This document shows, piece after piece, positions 2,729 through 14,443 of a DNA stretch of 24,060 nucleotides (the first letter of the stretch is position 1; each line of letters opens with the position of its first letter). Made by a program: the position numbers and the translations under genes. Below the pieces are notes generated by a model. The model was not told the origin of the DNA. It was given only the letters and a program-made list of their open reading frames with translations, and did no database searches. Origin of the DNA: a virus; the IMG/VR virus record IMGVR_UViG_3300007555_000037, positions 1 through 24,060 of that record. The stretch is one strand, 5' to 3'.

Positions 2729-3786
2729 TATGCAATCTCCATGTTTTGTGCTTCTTTCATCAAATGAGATACCTCTTGTTTGATTCGGTCTTTATCTAGG
2801 TCAGTAACAACATTGTCAATATAATCATATACAAGTGTCTCTGTATCGTCAACACATATGTTGTCATCATCCACATTAGAACCGATGAACTCTGCGAAGT
2901 CTTCCGCAATCTTTAGTTCATGAATCTTCTGTGCCTGTACCCGATCAATGAATCGTTCAAACTCATATGGGTCACCTTTATTGGTAACAATAACCTTGAC
3001 GAACTTACTATCAAGATAAGAGAGGTCTTTGAACTTGTTCATGTTCTCGTGGTCATAGTAAATCTTCTCAAAGATAGTGAGAGGATTCTGAACCGCAGTC
3101 AATTCTCTTGTTTCGGTATCAAGGATGTGGAAGTGTTTGGGGTCATTACAATCATTCCAGAAGAACTCCATCTGAGCACCCAAGTAATGAATGTTATCCA
3201 TACTAGACTTCGCATGGAAGTGACCAGTCAACACCATATCAAATCGATCAAAGTGTTTCTTACTCATACCATCCATACACACTTGACCACGTGCCATCTC
3301 GAACCCTTGCAGTTCTAAGTGAGCACCAACAATCTCTGCACTAGTGTTCTTCAGAAACTCTAATGTGGTCTTCTCGTTCTCTGGATTAATCCAAGGAACC
3401 AATGCAACCTCTGTACCATCATAATCCATCACTGTTGGTTCCATAATAAGGTTCACTTCATTCATGTAGTGACCTTGGAGTTCCTTCAGTGCATTCAACT
3501 CATTGGTGTTCTTATAGTACACGTCATGGTTGCCAGGAATTATATCCATAGTGATACCATGCTTACGCATAGGTTCTAGGAATATCTTACGGTTGTGTTG
3601 TAGTGCCTTGAAGTTGATTGTCTTACGATTATCGTAATAATCACCCAAGTGTAGTATCTGTGTAATACCATTTTCTAACAGGTACGGAAAGAAAACGTCT
3701 CGGTAGAAACGTTCTTGATAATCCATAAAAATGTCAGATGAGTTTCGACAACCCGCATGGGTGTCATTTAGTATTGCAATTTTCAT
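2728..3786 (-). CDS. 47: Recombination endonuclease subunit, Mre11/SbcD-like nuclease
   Basis: The 352-residue product (T4 gp47 is 339) is the metallophosphoesterase nuclease partner of gp46. The expected metal-ligand motifs appear in order: DTH at residues 8-10, GDYYDNR from 48, GNHD at 85-88, a lone His at about 156 (GAHLE) and GHFH at 188-191. The start ATG directly follows the TAA of the upstream gene, so translation is probably coupled. Gene order gp47, a small gene, gp46, gp45 is as in many T4-like phages. It should act on double-strand ends during recombination-dependent replication. Confidence 0.95.
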   Translation of the reverse strand: MKIAILNDTHAGCRNSSDIFMDYQERFYRDVFFPYLLENGITQILHLGDYYDNRKTINFKALQHNRKIFLEPMRKHGITMDIIPGNHDVYYKNTNELNALKELQGHYMNEVNLIMEPTVMDYDGTEVALVPWINPENEKTTLEFLKNTSAEIVGAHLELQGFEMARGQVCMDGMSKKHFDRFDMVLTGHFHAKSSMDNIHYLGAQMEFFWNDCNDPKHFHILDTETRELTAVQNPLTIFEKIYYDHENMNKFKDLSYLDSKFVKVIVTNKGDPYEFERFIDRVQAQKIHELKIAEDFAEFIGSNVDDDNICVDDTETLVYDYIDNVVTDLDKDRIKQEVSHLMKEAQNMEIA

Positions 3787-4002
3787 TTAATCATATGCCT
3801 CAATACAAAGGGATTCTTTCGCACTGAAATTATATCCCATTGATTTCATAAAATCCTGTAACACCTCAACCATTTCATCACGTGATAAATCCTTCTGCAT
3901 GATATCTATAGTAATACGTGTGTTCACAGAAGAACTGTGTTCATACGGATGACATATCAATTGTATGTAAGGTTTATCAAGACTTGGATTGTTCTCCATC
4001 AT
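3787..4002 (-). CDS. Hypothetical 71-residue protein upstream of gp47
   Basis: This small soluble acidic protein begins MMENNPSLDKPYIQLICHP; I do not recognise a family. It starts inside the end of the preceding 49-residue gene (26-base overlap) after a GGTGAG site, and its TAA abuts the gp47 ATG. The tight packing and the absence of another open frame support a real gene. It looks like an alpha/beta protein with a TRITIDIMQKDLSRDEMVEVL segment; no catalytic motif is visible. Confidence 0.75.
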   Translation of the reverse strand: MMENNPSLDKPYIQLICHPYEHSSSVNTRITIDIMQKDLSRDEMVEVLQDFMKSMGYNFSAKESLCIEAYD

Positions 4003-8764: not shown

Positions 8765-9214
8765 TTATTGTCCCGCTTCAAACGAACGCCATCTAATCAT
8801 ATTTCCGATAGTCTGATGTCTCCAATTGAGATTGTTGACTATCTCTGTAAGTGTATCTATAATTGTTTTAAGATACTGAATCTTCATCTCAGAGTCTTGA
8901 ATCTCTTTGTCGGAGTCATAGTAGTACTCCTTGAAGTTCTTGGTGGTTGCACTGAGACCCTCGTATGGGTCATACGCCCACCCACGAGACTCAATGTCAT
9001 CTTGGGACATCTTGCCTTCGTAATAGAGGTACTTGTCTTTGAGTAGAACCTTCTGTTTGAACTCCGCCTGTTTGAGACGGAGTTTTGTCAATGAAAGGTA
9101 CTCAAGGTACTTTGCGTGAAGGGCGGGTGTCACCCTTGAGGTTTCGTCCAATTGATGTTTCGCAATTTCGGAGTCTTCTTTCCACTCCGCAAGAATGCTT
9201 TCCAAATCAATCAT
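8765..9214 (-). CDS. uvsY: Recombination mediator UvsY
   Basis: The 149-residue product (T4 UvsY is 137) loads the UvsX recombinase on gp32-covered single-stranded DNA. Support is a helical Lys/Glu-rich protein with the LRLKQAEFKQKVLLKDKYLYYEG segment, where T4 has a similar alkaline stretch ending YYSG, and the shared C-terminus ending FEAG plus one residue. It is directly upstream of uvsW, the usual T4-like linkage. A GGAG site lies 8 bases before the ATG. Confidence 0.85.
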   Translation of the reverse strand: MIDLESILAEWKEDSEIAKHQLDETSRVTPALHAKYLEYLSLTKLRLKQAEFKQKVLLKDKYLYYEGKMSQDDIESRGWAYDPYEGLSATTKNFKEYYYDSDKEIQDSEMKIQYLKTIIDTLTEIVNNLNWRHQTIGNMIRWRSFEAGQ

Positions 9215-9247
9215 AATATAATCTCCATAATGTAAAGGTATATAGTG

Positions 9248-9775
9248 TTAAGTTATCTCGAACTGTGAGAACCTAAATGAAGCGTCAAACGTCACGTAGG
9301 TTACATCTCCCTGTGTTGAGGTGAACTCAATATTACCAAGTGATATAGGCATACAATCCTTATACTTGATCTTTTGAGTTGTGTTGTTGTGACTAGACAA
9401 TACGTGTAGTGTAATGTCAGAGTATGTTGGTATCTTGGTCATTCTCTCGGATTGTGATACTTGACCATCATTGACAATACGAGTCAACCAATCGTACATC
9501 TCTTTATAGGATGATAGACTCTCGTCTAAAATGATCGAGAACGATACTTCGGTGAAGGTGATCTTGTCACCCGCCAAAGGTACTGACGTGATTCTTCGAA
9601 TGGGTAATTCTACAGGATTGACAGATGCGCCTGGATGTGATACAGACTGGACAAAGTATTCCAAGTTGGGATACCTTGCCCTGTCGATGACTACCTTAAA
9701 CCCTGTGGGTTGTAAGTAGTTTAGATTGGTTGTGATTTCCGCATCAGAAATCTGAACTTTACTGTCTACTGGCAT
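9248..9775 (-). CDS. Tail-tube-fold structural protein, gp19-like paralog
   Basis: This 175-residue protein has the same length as the gp19 in this window (20211-20738) and a similar central pattern: a hydrophobic strand ending in Pro, an x-PIRR or PFRG segment, AGD, an Ile-Leu-(N/D)-(D/E) strand and a helix with a Met-x-x-Trp. I infer a tail-tube fold, so it may be a baseplate or tail-terminal tube protein. I cannot tell which T4 gene it corresponds to, if any. It sits beside uvsY rather than in the tail block but has its own exact late promoter 24 bases upstream and an AGAGG ribosome site, as expected of a virion gene. Confidence 0.7.
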   Translation of the reverse strand: MPVDSKVQISDAEITTNLNYLQPTGFKVVIDRARYPNLEYFVQSVSHPGASVNPVELPIRRITSVPLAGDKITFTEVSFSIILDESLSSYKEMYDWLTRIVNDGQVSQSERMTKIPTYSDITLHVLSSHNNTTQKIKYKDCMPISLGNIEFTSTQGDVTYVTFDASFRFSQFEIT

Positions 9776-9798
9776 AATGACCTCTTATAATATACTTC

Positions 9799-9806
9799 TA
9801 TTTATA
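9799..9806 (-). promoter_or_regulatory. T4-type late promoter TATAAATA
   Basis: An exact late octamer on the minus strand, 24 bases before the ATG of the tube-like gene. The AGAGG ribosome site lies between them, which leaves room for a short leader. Confidence 0.75.
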
Positions 9807-9812
9807 AGAGAT

Positions 9813-9950
9813 TTAATGTACAGTTTCCTGTTCACGTATTTTTTCTGCGAGTTGTTTGACGACACCCGCCCAGTAGTTTTTCGCCCACTCGGTTTGTGAA
9901 CGTGCCAATGCATCATTCGCATTGGCGATTAATCTATGATAATCATACAT
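9813..9950 (-). CDS. Small 45-residue soluble protein
   Basis: This short gene begins MYDYHRLIANANDALARSQ and ends with TAA at 9815-9813. A GGGGAG ribosome site lies 8 bases before the ATG. It overlaps the upstream 64-residue gene by 8 bases, in the style of the surrounding genes. The product is predicted to be largely helical, with two Trp and a Lys/Glu-rich end (WAKNYWAGVVKQLAEKI). No family is recognised. It is the last gene of the first early cassette. Confidence 0.7.
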   Translation of the reverse strand: MYDYHRLIANANDALARSQTEWAKNYWAGVVKQLAEKIREQETVH

Positions 9951-10137
9951 CTACTATTCTCCCCTTTCCGACCCAGATGATTTCTTCGAACTTCTGTTCG
10001 TAGGTCTTACCATCTACAGTGAATCCAACTTCGTGTAACTGTTTCAATACGAACTTAACTGCTTCCTTTGCGGTCTCAAAAGAATACCACTTTAGACACT
10101 CACGACCTTGATTTGCAAGTCTTACTTCATACATCAT
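9943..10137 (-). CDS. Hypothetical 64-residue early protein
   Basis: It starts at paired ATGs (10137, 10134) after AAGGAGAG, 6 bases upstream. The first half looks like a small alpha/beta unit (MYEVRLANQGRECLKWYSF, then a helix rich in Ala, Lys and Val). The end is basic (WVGKGRIVDV). No family is recognised. The start follows the stop of the membrane-protein gene by one base, so the two are probably co-translated. Confidence 0.75.
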   Translation of the reverse strand: MMYEVRLANQGRECLKWYSFETAKEAVKFVLKQLHEVGFTVDGKTYEQKFEEIIWVGKGRIVDV

Positions 10138-10138
10138 G

Positions 10139-10279
10139 TTACTCTCCTTTATTTAGTTTGTTACTATAATCTTTACGTCTTTTTTTGAACTCGTCCACTG
10201 CAGCCAAGAAACGTATCGCTCCAGCAAAACAAAAGAACAATCCAAAAAACACAACTAGAAACTCTGTCAGTTCTGACAC
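10139..10279 (-). CDS. Small one-helix membrane protein, GTG start
   Basis: This 46-residue gene starts with GTG at 10279, sharing its first G with the TAG stop of the upstream gene. AAGGAGG lies 7 bases upstream and is among the best ribosome sites in the window. Residues 7-27 are hydrophobic (FLVVFFGLFFCFAGAIRFLAA), long enough for one membrane helix, followed by a basic tail (FKKRRKDYSNKLNKGE) expected in the cytoplasm. There is no cleavable signal. Small one-helix proteins in early phage regions sometimes act in membrane takeover, lysis timing or superinfection exclusion; the role here is unknown. Confidence 0.75.
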   Translation of the reverse strand: MSELTEFLVVFFGLFFCFAGAIRFLAAVDEFKKRRKDYSNKLNKGE

Positions 10280-11790: not shown

Positions 11791-11819
11791 TTGACAATTT
11801 TTGCTATATACTGTATGAT
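11791..11819 (+). promoter_or_regulatory. Sigma70 early promoter for plus-strand cassette
   Basis: TTGACA (11791-11796), 17 bases, then TATGAT (11814-11819). RNA would start near 11826, giving an 18-base leader with a GAGAG ribosome site before the ATG at 11844. Confidence 0.8.
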
Positions 11820-11843
11820 GGTACACATAACTGAGAGAAATAC

Positions 11844-12983
11844 ATGATTCTATCCAAAACTGATGCAGATTACGCTGCAAACATCTTTACCGAGTTCTTT
11901 GCGAACTTTGACCGTATTGATGACTATATGAGACAGATTAAACTGGAACGAATGGACTCTATGCCATTCACTCTGCCCGGCATGGGGCCAGAGGAAGACC
12001 TATTCAATAACTTCGATATGCATCCCAAGGATATGGAGTTCACTATCGCAGAGGCGAAACGTGACCAATTCATGTCCTATATGGATATCACCACTTCCGC
12101 ACCTGTAGAAGCGTCAATTCCTGGCAAGATGATGAACTGGGTAGTGCGTGAGAAGAACACTGGTATGGTCATTGGTATGATTCGATTCGGGTCACCCACT
12201 ATTAATAGTAGACCACGTAATGAGTGGTTGGGTAAACCTCTAGACACAATGAATGCAGAGGTCATGAAACGATTCAACGAGTCCTGTATCATGGGATTCA
12301 ATATCGTACCTGTACAACCATTCGGGTTCAATTACCTCGGTGGTAAGTTACTTGCATCTATATGTACCTCACATACTGTACGTGATGCACTCAACAAGAA
12401 ATATGACTCAAACATCTGTATGTTCGAGACTACATCCTTATATGGTAATGCTAAGGGTGGTGTGTCTATGTACTCTGGTATGAAACCTCAATTGATTGGT
12501 AATGGACAGACAGACTCTAACTTTGCGCCATTGATTAACGATGACAACTATCGCAGACTAAGTGATTGGTTCATTGAACGTAATGGGGGTGAACCTCTTG
12601 TACCTAAAGACGCTTCATCTCGTAAGTTGAAGACACAACAGAAGATGGTGTCGATCATCAAGAACTCACTGAAACAATATGACATGGATGCATATAACAA
12701 GTTCTGTCAAACCTTTATTGATGCCAAAGGACTGACCCAACAAAAGAACTCGTATTACTCTTGCATGGGATATGACCGTGAGAGTGTGAAGAAGTACCTC
12801 AACCTTGAGTCCGATACTATTGTCAAAGCAGATAACTTTGATAGGTTCAGTCTTGAGGGTGTGACAGAATGGTGGCGTAAGAAGGCGACCAATCGATACG
12901 AAACTCTAAAAGCAGATGGGCGTTTGCGTTCTGTTATAGAGACTTGGAACACAAACGCAGACGATATCGATATCATTCGATAA
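11844..12983 (+). CDS. DUF4338 (DruA-like) protein, tentative
   Basis: This 379-residue protein is on the opposite strand to its neighbours. Residues about 90-215 follow the order of features I recall for DUF4338, the domain of DruA in Druantia defence: a strand pair (NWVVREKNTGMVIGMIRFGS), a Trp-Leu-Gly after a charged turn (NEWLGKPL), an Asn then a Val-Pro (GFNIVPVQPFGFNYLGGKLL), a Tyr-containing link, and an ETTSLYG segment followed by SMYSGMKP. The match is by pattern and is not certain. The C-terminal half is helical and basic, suggesting nucleic-acid binding. The early promoter points to action soon after infection. It is followed by a ParB-like gene in the same operon. Confidence 0.55.
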   Translation: MILSKTDADYAANIFTEFFANFDRIDDYMRQIKLERMDSMPFTLPGMGPEEDLFNNFDMHPKDMEFTIAEAKRDQFMSYMDITTSAPVEASIPGKMMNWVVREKNTGMVIGMIRFGSPTINSRPRNEWLGKPLDTMNAEVMKRFNESCIMGFNIVPVQPFGFNYLGGKLLASICTSHTVRDALNKKYDSNICMFETTSLYGNAKGGVSMYSGMKPQLIGNGQTDSNFAPLINDDNYRRLSDWFIERNGGEPLVPKDASSRKLKTQQKMVSIIKNSLKQYDMDAYNKFCQTFIDAKGLTQQKNSYYSCMGYDRESVKKYLNLESDTIVKADNFDRFSLEGVTEWWRKKATNRYETLKADGRLRSVIETWNTNADDIDIIR

Positions 12984-12984
12984 A

Positions 12985-13089
12985 ATGTTGTGTAATTTAC
13001 ATGAAGCGATGAACGCTGAAGGTTACACAATTAAATTAAATATGGAGAGCGAAAGCTATGAAAAAAACGAAAACTACACTACGACCTAA
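12985..13089 (+). CDS. Possible 34-residue ORF overlapping the ParB-like gene
   Basis: An ATG one base after the DruA-like stop opens a 34-codon frame (MLCNLHEAMNAEGYTIKLNM...) that ends 32 bases inside the next gene in another frame. There is no ribosome site, so translation would rely on coupling. It coincides with a stem-loop (TTGTGTAA at 12988-12995 with TTACACAA at 13023-13030), so the stretch may instead be a regulatory leader. Confidence 0.25.
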   Translation: MLCNLHEAMNAEGYTIKLNMESESYEKNENYTTT

Positions 13090-14050
13090 ACCCTTAAACG
13101 CAATCGTACCTGAAGCAAAAGGTATGCGAGTAATCGAAATGGGTTACATCCCAATGAAAATGATTGTTTCGTCCAAATTGGGAACTAACAAAAATAGACC
13201 AGAGGGCGTCAATGCTCGTAAAGTTAGTCTAATGGAAAATGTTATTCGAGCAGACAAATATCGTCCCGAATACTTTGAACCACCTGTCATAGAGAAAAAT
13301 GAAGATGGGACTTTCACTGTCCGCACTGGTGGTCACAGACACATGGCTCACGAAAACACAGGCAGAACAATCTTCTATGCAGCTGTTGTTGAGTTCTTTG
13401 ACGTTAACGGAAAGTCTGCTAATTATTGGAGAACAACTTACCAGTCTAACGAGAACGCTAAGAAAGAAGATGAAGTAGTCACTAAAAACTACCGCACAGA
13501 CCAAGGCATTATGTCCAGTATACAAAGTCTTGTCGATAGTGGTGATGTTGAACCGACTCCCAAAGGCATTCAATCCGCACTGGAAGATCAGGGATTCAGT
13601 CCTACTACCGAGAGAGGCATAAATCTTCTCAATAAGATTCGTCTTGACTTGGGACAGGTTGATGGTGTGACTCGTATCTATTCAAGGAACGAACTTAAAG
13701 GTACTGTAGAACAAGAAACTACTCCGACCACTACCGTGATAGTTCGTACAATGAAAGACTCTAGTGGTTATGACTTGGATTATGATTCTCGTTTGATGAA
13801 AAACATTATGGACTCATATCTGAACACCAAGAAGTACATCAATGTATTTCTACACTGGACTGGTCTAAACCCTAGTGATATTATCAAAGCACGTGAGATT
13901 AAGGATAATGTTATTGTTAACCAATATCTAAAAGCAAAACAATTTGTTGAAGCGTATGAATCTGGTGCATTGGATAACCGTGTTCAAATCCGATACTTAC
14001 CTCAGTTGAATGGTGAGTACGATGTAGAAGAAATCGCTCAGAAGGCTTGA
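13058..14050 (+). CDS. ParB/Srx-like domain protein
   Basis: The 330-residue product has a ParB/sulfiredoxin-type N-terminal half: a positioning segment (VIEMGYIPMKMIVSS, residues 25-39), NVIRADKYRPEYFEPPVIEK with the strand that precedes the motif, then VRTGGHRHMA, where residues 90-95 (TGGHRH) correspond to the G-H/Q-H/R-R nucleotide-binding motif. ParB-like folds bind CTP or ATP and act as nucleases, DNA clamps or transcription regulators; DGQHR proteins in DNA-modification systems are related. The C-terminal half is helical with no recognised domain. GGAG lies 8 bases before the ATG. Its TGA is embedded in the -35 of the tRNA promoter. Exact activity is unknown. Confidence 0.7.
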   Translation: MKKTKTTLRPKPLNAIVPEAKGMRVIEMGYIPMKMIVSSKLGTNKNRPEGVNARKVSLMENVIRADKYRPEYFEPPVIEKNEDGTFTVRTGGHRHMAHENTGRTIFYAAVVEFFDVNGKSANYWRTTYQSNENAKKEDEVVTKNYRTDQGIMSSIQSLVDSGDVEPTPKGIQSALEDQGFSPTTERGINLLNKIRLDLGQVDGVTRIYSRNELKGTVEQETTPTTTVIVRTMKDSSGYDLDYDSRLMKNIMDSYLNTKKYINVFLHWTGLNPSDIIKAREIKDNVIVNQYLKAKQFVEAYESGALDNRVQIRYLPQLNGEYDVEEIAQKA

Positions 14051-14075
14051 CTTTAACTGTTTGGTGTGTTATTAT
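14047..14075 (+). promoter_or_regulatory. Sigma70-type promoter for the tRNA gene
   Basis: TTGACT (14047-14052), 17 bases, then TATTAT (14070-14075), with GTGTG before the -10. The -35 contains the TGA stop of the ParB-like gene. It differs from the gp45 promoter at only five or so of 29 positions. The tRNA begins 11 bases after the -10. Confidence 0.75.
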
Positions 14076-14086
14076 ATAAAAACAAT

Positions 14087-14158
14087 GCGGAGTTGGTATA
14101 ACGATTACGTTAGGTGTCCAACCTAAAGATGGGGGTTCAAGTCCTCTGCTCCGCTCCA
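14087..14158 (+). tRNA. tRNA-Gly (UCC), structurally unusual
   Basis: A 72-base cloverleaf with encoded CCA. The acceptor GCGGAGT pairs with GCTCCGC (one G-T pair). The T arm has GGGGG, loop TTCAAGT, CCTCT. The anticodon arm is TTAGG, loop TGTCCAA, CCTAA, which puts the anticodon TCC at 14117-14119. Glycine identity is supported by C2-G71, discriminator T at 14155 and C35-C36. Two features are abnormal: position 33 is G instead of the universal U, and the D-loop (GTATAACGATTAC) is 3 bases shorter than in E. coli tRNA-Gly(UCC) and lacks the GG that contacts the T-loop. It has its own promoter and terminator, so it is likely transcribed; whether it is charged and used is uncertain. Confidence 0.75.
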
Positions 14159-14168
14159 ATCTCTCTCT

Positions 14169-14193
14169 ACCCCTCTTCGGAGGGGTTTTCTTT
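14169..14193 (+). terminator. Rho-independent terminator after the tRNA
   Basis: A 7-bp stem (ACCCCTC with GAGGGGT) closed by a TTCG tetraloop and followed by TTTTCTTT on the plus strand. It ends the tRNA transcript and the whole plus-strand cassette. Confidence 0.88.
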
Positions 14194-14224: not shown

Positions 14225-14443
14225 TTATTCCCCTTCGGGTTCCCCTTCGGGTGCTGTTGCGGCAGTTCCAGTCTTGTCAGCAACATCTTTAATGACATTA
14301 GATGTTACGTCTAATATACCAGCGGTCACACCAAAGACATCAGAACCGACACCTTTAATAATACCACCAGTACCGTCAATGGTTGCATCAACGGTGGAAC
14401 AAGCAGACAAAACTAATGCGAATGCAATTGCAATGATACGCAT
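14225..14443 (-). CDS. Small secreted lipoprotein
   Basis: The 72-residue product has a short signal peptide (MRIIAIAFALVLSAC) with a lipobox LSAC and Cys15, so it should be lipid-modified and anchored in the host inner or outer membrane. The mature part is Gly/Val/Asp-rich (TVDATIDGTGGIIKGVGSDVF) and ends in PEGEPEGE, encoded by two tandem 12-base units. An AGGAG ribosome site precedes the ATG. A late promoter lies about 110 bases upstream. Phage lipoproteins of this size may serve as outer-membrane spanins or receptor-blocking exclusion proteins; no partner inner-membrane spanin is visible here, so function is open. Confidence 0.75.
   Translation of the reverse strand: MRIIAIAFALVLSACSTVDATIDGTGGIIKGVGSDVFGVTAGILDVTSNVIKDVADKTGTAATAPEGEPEGE

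Follow-up and report, generated by a model that had tools for sequence, protein, structure and literature searches.

We describe a cassette, carried by a fragment of a marine T4-like phage, in which a DruA-domain protein (P1) and a ParB-like protein (P2) are followed by an aberrant tRNA-Gly. The window, meaning the whole stretch of 24,060 nucleotides that was analysed, comes from this phage. We propose that the phage uses the cassette to modify DNA and that glycyl-tRNA would be the donor to an enzyme of the Mom/DruA type, a reading to which we give an even chance. The proposal is built on a glycine-specific tRNA association that recurs in two unrelated phage groups, and on the loss of U33 from members of these tRNAs while the elements recognized by GlyRS are retained. 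DNA modification was one of three roles, with anti-defence and exclusion, that a first-pass annotation of this DNA had offered, and it is the best fit among the three. That annotation assigned no role to the tRNA, which is the most informative part of the cassette.

Cassette anatomy and genomic setting

All recognised phage genes of the window are on the minus strand, and these structural and replication genes are broken by a plus-strand block at 11791-14186 that reads promoter, P1, P2, tRNA-Gly, terminator. Apart from P1 (379 aa, 11844-12983) and P2 (330 aa, 13058-14050), the plus strand of the window has no long genes. A candidate sigma70-type promoter, TTGACA-17-TATGAT, lies ahead of P1 at 11791-11819 and is called by consensus match only (11 of 12 positions). 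A second promoter-like sequence at 14047-14075, TTGACT-17-TATTAT with 10 of 12 consensus matches, has its -35 box overlapping the P2 stop codon and extends into the spacer that precedes the tRNA. The tRNA-Gly(UCC) at 14087-14158, which has an encoded CCA, was detected by ARAGORN and scores 42.1 bits with the Rfam tRNA model; downstream of it, at 14169-14186, is a sequence with the pattern of an intrinsic terminator, a stem followed by a T-tail. The open reading frames, promoter and terminator bear out the first-pass description of a plus-strand cassette amid minus-strand genes, and the tRNA is as odd as was then noted, having G33 in its anticodon loop (TGTCCAA) in place of U33 and a D-loop that lacks GG. 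A small predicted lipoprotein (MRIIAIAFALVLSAC...) is encoded on the minus strand at 14225-14443, in the gap that separates the cassette from the major capsid gene.

A DruA-domain protein and its exchangeable partners

P1 matches the Pfam DruA profile (PF14236) with 40.6 bits against a gathering cut-off of 27, confirming an assignment to DUF4338 that had been made by eye, and all P1 relatives tested exceed the cut-off as well (33-80 bits). It is matched across its full length by phrog_19197 (E=8e-146). About 30 records of cyanophages and pelagiphages contain full-length homologues with 42-51% identity, and homologues with 60-100% identity were found at more than 80 IMG/VR loci; the conserved positions are grouped in S85, GxIRFGSP..NS.PR, P.QP.G.N..GGKLL and TTSLYG....S.Y. 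One homologue has been labelled 'methylcarbamoylase mom' by a database annotator. Pelagibacter phage HTVC008M (L087, L131) encodes a pair of diverged DruA-domain paralogues, and its only tRNA is a tRNA-Gly(acc) with an abnormal T-loop.

The AlphaFold2 model of P1 (pLDDT 78) has a GNAT-like fold. GNAT acyltransferases fill the top of its Foldseek list against the PDB, with E-values of only 5e-3 to 0.1, and the best relevantly named phage protein in a structure search of a viral library is Mom (prob 1.00, E 2.1e-3, TM 0.53 on the target). DUF4338 has been described independently as a GNAT domain (PMC10853773). The closest structural matches of P1 are uncharacterised giant-virus proteins (A0A3G4ZXG3, A0A5K0UAJ3 and A0A3G4ZRA1), so that DruA-like GNATs seem to extend to viruses of eukaryotes. 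P1 did not match the Mom profile PF25680 in a profile search, and profile-profile comparison of P1/DruA with Mom gave about 1%, even when 81 diverse Mom sequences were used. Because sequence profiles fail to join P1 and Mom, we claim a shared fold and a shared context, and not membership of the Mom family. A profile-profile value of 100% for P1 against DruA was discarded because sequences were common to both alignments. PDB sequence searches gave no match for either P1 or P2.

P2 carries a GGHR signature motif (GGHRHMAxE). Compared with PHROGs it matches only the ParB-like phrog_1033, remotely and over residues 47-114 (E=2.6e-4); nothing significant was found in Pfam, with no ParB or GmrSD_N match and no HNH domain. 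No P2 relative was found in the phage collection, and a second profile scan gave no further ones. A predicted model, built from 3 sequences only, had a pLDDT of 38 and was not used for fold search. P2 homologues adjoin P1 in 4/4 homologous loci, and other ParB-superfold partners take this place elsewhere. With the DUF4338 profile match, the ParB-like match and this recurrent adjacency all found, the pairing suggested on first pass stands. The spacer between P1 and P2 (12984-13057) is conserved and in two related loci (L003 and L004; L003:3067-3180) extends the P2 reading frame at its N-terminus (CNIHEAINAEGYIIKLN), so that the P2 start codon, which is uncertain, may differ from the one given here, or a small gene may have been lost.

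P1 is found in many marine T4-like phages, either in the replisome operon or at the head of a partner cassette. In isolates the replisome operon is its usual place; in cyanophages it is either flanked by gp44 and gp62 of the clamp loader or follows the DNA polymerase gene gp43, which is a fitting location for an enzyme that acts on replicating DNA. In loci akin to that of the window it is the first gene of a cassette beside the major capsid gene. The genes behind P1 vary and include the P2 type, families c18, c70, c67, c48, c26 and c84, DUF932 and smaller ones. Partner c26 has a weak GmrSD_N match, and c84 has GmrSD_N plus HNH. Profile-profile comparison joins c18 to c70 (97.6%), c26 to c84 (93%) and the merged c18 and c70 profile to P2 (92.7%, E 4e-7, 295 columns), where control families gave at most 0.6% against merged profiles. 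This homology to other GxHR-type partners, together with the remote phrog_1033 match, supports the earlier call of P2 as ParB-like. As GmrS has been placed in the ParB/Srx fold (PMC4619093), these profile joins indicate that the larger partners, for the most part, probably share the ParB superfold and are exchanged behind a constant P1. Pelagibacter phage Mosig (L130) encodes, near its sliding-clamp gene, a ParB-like protein of the c18 type together with a DruA-domain protein, the two about 5 kb apart (2985-3956 and 8886-10184).

A tRNA-Gly linked to two GNAT families

The association of P1 with tRNA-Gly is well supported. In the P1 loci retrieved, all 25 tRNAs that lie no more than 4 kb from P1 are tRNA-Gly, and behind four different partner families the tRNA-Gly begins 40 nt past the end of the open frame. 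At the capsid-gene site, tRNA-Gly is present in 5/5 loci with P1 versus 0/42 without it. Across whole contigs and isolates, tRNA-Gly occurs in 23/25 P1-positive records versus 2/21 P1-negative relatives (p=9e-9, a value that, like the other p-values for this association, ignores shared ancestry), and among records with any tRNA the counts are 23/25 versus 2/12. Other isotypes are far more weakly linked to P1: proline comes next (p=0.02), and arginine, threonine, leucine and asparagine have no association. The exceptions are two P1-positive isolates that lack tRNA-Gly, S-B68 and Mosig, and Syn1 and one contig, which have tRNA-Gly and no P1. In several P1-positive contigs the tRNA-Gly is in a distant tRNA cluster and not beside P1, and no hidden tRNA-Gly turned up when the surroundings of the 57 other P1 loci were scanned.

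The second case is provided by Mom, for which the link to tRNA-Gly is likewise well supported. In Microbacterium phage Antuna the genes for a ParB-like protein, a Mom-like protein and a tRNA-Gly are consecutive, with the tRNA on the other strand. We used the Antuna Mom as query to collect 81 actinophage-type Mom loci, in 46 of which ParB is directly upstream of Mom. ARAGORN detected 8 tRNAs in these loci, all 8 of them glycine tRNAs that abut Mom. A covariance model trained on 21 linked tRNA-Gly matched 43/81 loci, nearly all matches starting -18 to +60 nt from the end of the Mom match; this count alone would be biased, since the sequences used in training are among those counted and the alignment had been fitted to this model, a bias of which the ARAGORN and acceptor-pattern counts are free. 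The acceptor pattern GCG-N4..N4-CGC-U73 (7/7) marks the 3' end of Mom in 77/81 loci, where 1.5 would be expected, and three of the four loci that lack it there (Antuna, its near-copy L293, and L364) have the tRNA on the opposite strand or 5' of Mom. In the alignment of Mom-linked elements 97% of positions that should pair are paired, and 18/21 pairs have two-sided changes, supporting the fold. Arthrobacter phage Sonny has a ParB-like protein, one small gene, a Mom-like protein and the same tRNA-like element. A contig of only 2277 bases (L322) has the element at 19 and again at 2175, close to either end, which would fit Mom lying on a circle or tandem of about 2.2 kb. No tRNA-like element was found behind mom in phage Mu. 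Melnitz-type Mom was considered as a third tRNA-Gly case and rejected, as these loci have no tRNA-Gly; instead, 38 loci (L292:6991-7064, L374-L430) have a tRNA-Trp(cca) that lies upstream of Mom by about 1 kb, and misreading of a glycine tRNA was ruled out, the tRNA being a genuine tRNA-Trp (G73).

In most Mom loci the ORF and the tRNA-like element overlap at the 3' end of Mom, as they might if the element acted in cis on the GNAT mRNA, sensing glycylation and either regulating the mRNA or directing its processing. We consider this very unlikely, since the tRNA in the window is behind another gene and has its own promoter-like box, and since some P1-positive phages have the tRNA kilobases away from P1 and Antuna has it on the opposite strand. 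A restriction-modification-like or exclusion module of P1 and P2 that uses an acyl-CoA donor, the tRNA being incidental, would accommodate the variable nuclease-like partners and the Mom-REase fusions described in jumbo phages (PMC7824862). Such a module leaves unexplained both the tRNA association across whole records and the acceptor count of 77/81, and we think it improbable. Judged by eye, a canonical CoA-binding signature is not evident in motif A of P1.

Many of the linked tRNA-Gly lack U33 or the GG of the D-loop, many other linked copies are canonical, and many Mom-linked elements are shortened. U33 is near-universal in tRNAs. Among 42 distinct tRNA-Gly, 12 have G33, all of them in P1-positive or Mom-positive records and belonging to at least 3 sequence types, versus none of the 140 other tRNAs in the same data. 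GlyRS reads the acceptor positions together with C35 and C36, and these identity elements are kept (G1-C72, C2-G71, U73, C35 and C36), as seen in the window tRNA and in the alignment. Loss of decoding features with retention of the GlyRS elements is what would be expected if a tRNA were charged with glycine yet went unused by ribosomes, and from its sequence the window tRNA-Gly looks unfit for translation.

These features bear on two further explanations. The tRNA-Gly might be an ordinary codon-usage tRNA, associated with P1 through hitchhiking at a common insertion site, as the tRNA-Gly held in ordinary tRNA clusters by some P1-positive phages and the canonical form of many linked copies would allow. 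The isotype specificity, the recurrence, in unrelated phages, right where the Mom gene ends and the loss of U33 speak against this explanation, which we regard as unlikely. Alternatively, P1 could resemble the TacT and AtaT2 toxins, which favour Gly-tRNA: it would be a GNAT that acetylates glycyl-tRNA and stops host translation, and the phage tRNA-Gly would replace the host tRNA or resist acetylation. The GNAT fold, the presence of the bacterial-toxin GNAT 7byy among the PDB matches of the P1 model and the tRNA-Gly link are in keeping with such a toxin. Replacement tRNAs should decode, however, and many of these have G33 or lack the D-loop GG, with many Mom-linked ones shortened; moreover, the replisome-operon location and the GmrSD and HNH partners indicate DNA, and Mom is an established DNA modifier. 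The probability we assign to a toxin is accordingly small.

Proposed mechanism and comparison with known systems

In the glycyl-tRNA donor mechanism that we propose, the phage tRNA-Gly, having lost decoding features, would be charged by host GlyRS, and the glycyl-tRNA would serve as group donor to P1, a putative DruA/Mom-like transferase of GNAT fold that would place a glycine-derived group on phage DNA. P2, the predicted ParB/Srx-fold partner, may attack unmarked DNA of the host or of a competing phage, or may direct the modification. Mu Mom adds a glycinamide-like group to adenine N6, and by analogy the base targeted by P1 would probably be adenine. N6-glycyl-adenine, as would be formed by acyl transfer from glycyl-tRNA, is an isomer of the N6-carbamoylmethyl-adenine of Mu, and a rearrangement or a different product would thus be needed.

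The donor of the glycine-derived group of Mom has so far been proposed only as something like glycyl-CoA, which was named as a possible donor (PMC7824862). A dedicated glycyl-tRNA is an alternative source of glycine that also explains the tRNA gene, and we hold it an evenly balanced question that glycyl-tRNA, not acyl-CoA, supplies the DNA mark through a non-decoding tRNA-Gly dedicated to a Mom/DruA GNAT. It has further been proposed that phage Mom shields the DNA of the phage and a fused endonuclease attacks other DNA (PMC7824862), a proposal that fits the nuclease-like partners of P1. Our literature search, to which preprints and many subscription journals were outside, found no paper on Mom with glycyl-tRNA. 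If the mechanism is correct, it would, within the literature searched, be the first to connect tRNA charging with the modification of DNA; it would supply the donor for Mom modification and be a categorically new DNA-modification chemistry, and would explain why certain phages retain one particular tRNA. A tRNA-Gly that is conserved, apparently unfit for translation and found beside two GNAT families makes the tRNA donor directly testable.

Mom of phage Mu (PF25680), a DNA adenine modifier of the GNAT superfamily, is like P1 in its GNAT-like fold, and its actinophage relatives are, like P1, paired with ParB-like proteins and tRNA-Gly-like elements. P1 differs from Mom in lacking a sequence-profile match and in being larger, with extra N- and C-terminal helices. 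With DruA of Druantia (DUF4338, PF14236) P1 shares the DruA domain above the curated cut-off; unlike Druantia, the cassette is phage-carried and has a ParB-like partner and a tRNA, and no helicase of DruE size or other Druantia gene is present in the 24-kb window, where the largest ORF is 619 aa. Some P1 partners resemble the GmrSD type IV restriction system (a ParB/Srx-fold GmrS plus an HNH GmrD) in carrying GmrSD_N, one of them with HNH, whereas P2 has neither and HNH is found only in relatives of the cassette. We know of no GmrSD system paired with a GNAT and a tRNA. In staphylococci, a cell-wall tRNA-Gly that is poorly suited to the ribosome is the glycine donor to Fem transferases of GNAT-like fold; the acceptor in that system is a peptidoglycan precursor, and in the cassette proposed here it would be DNA.
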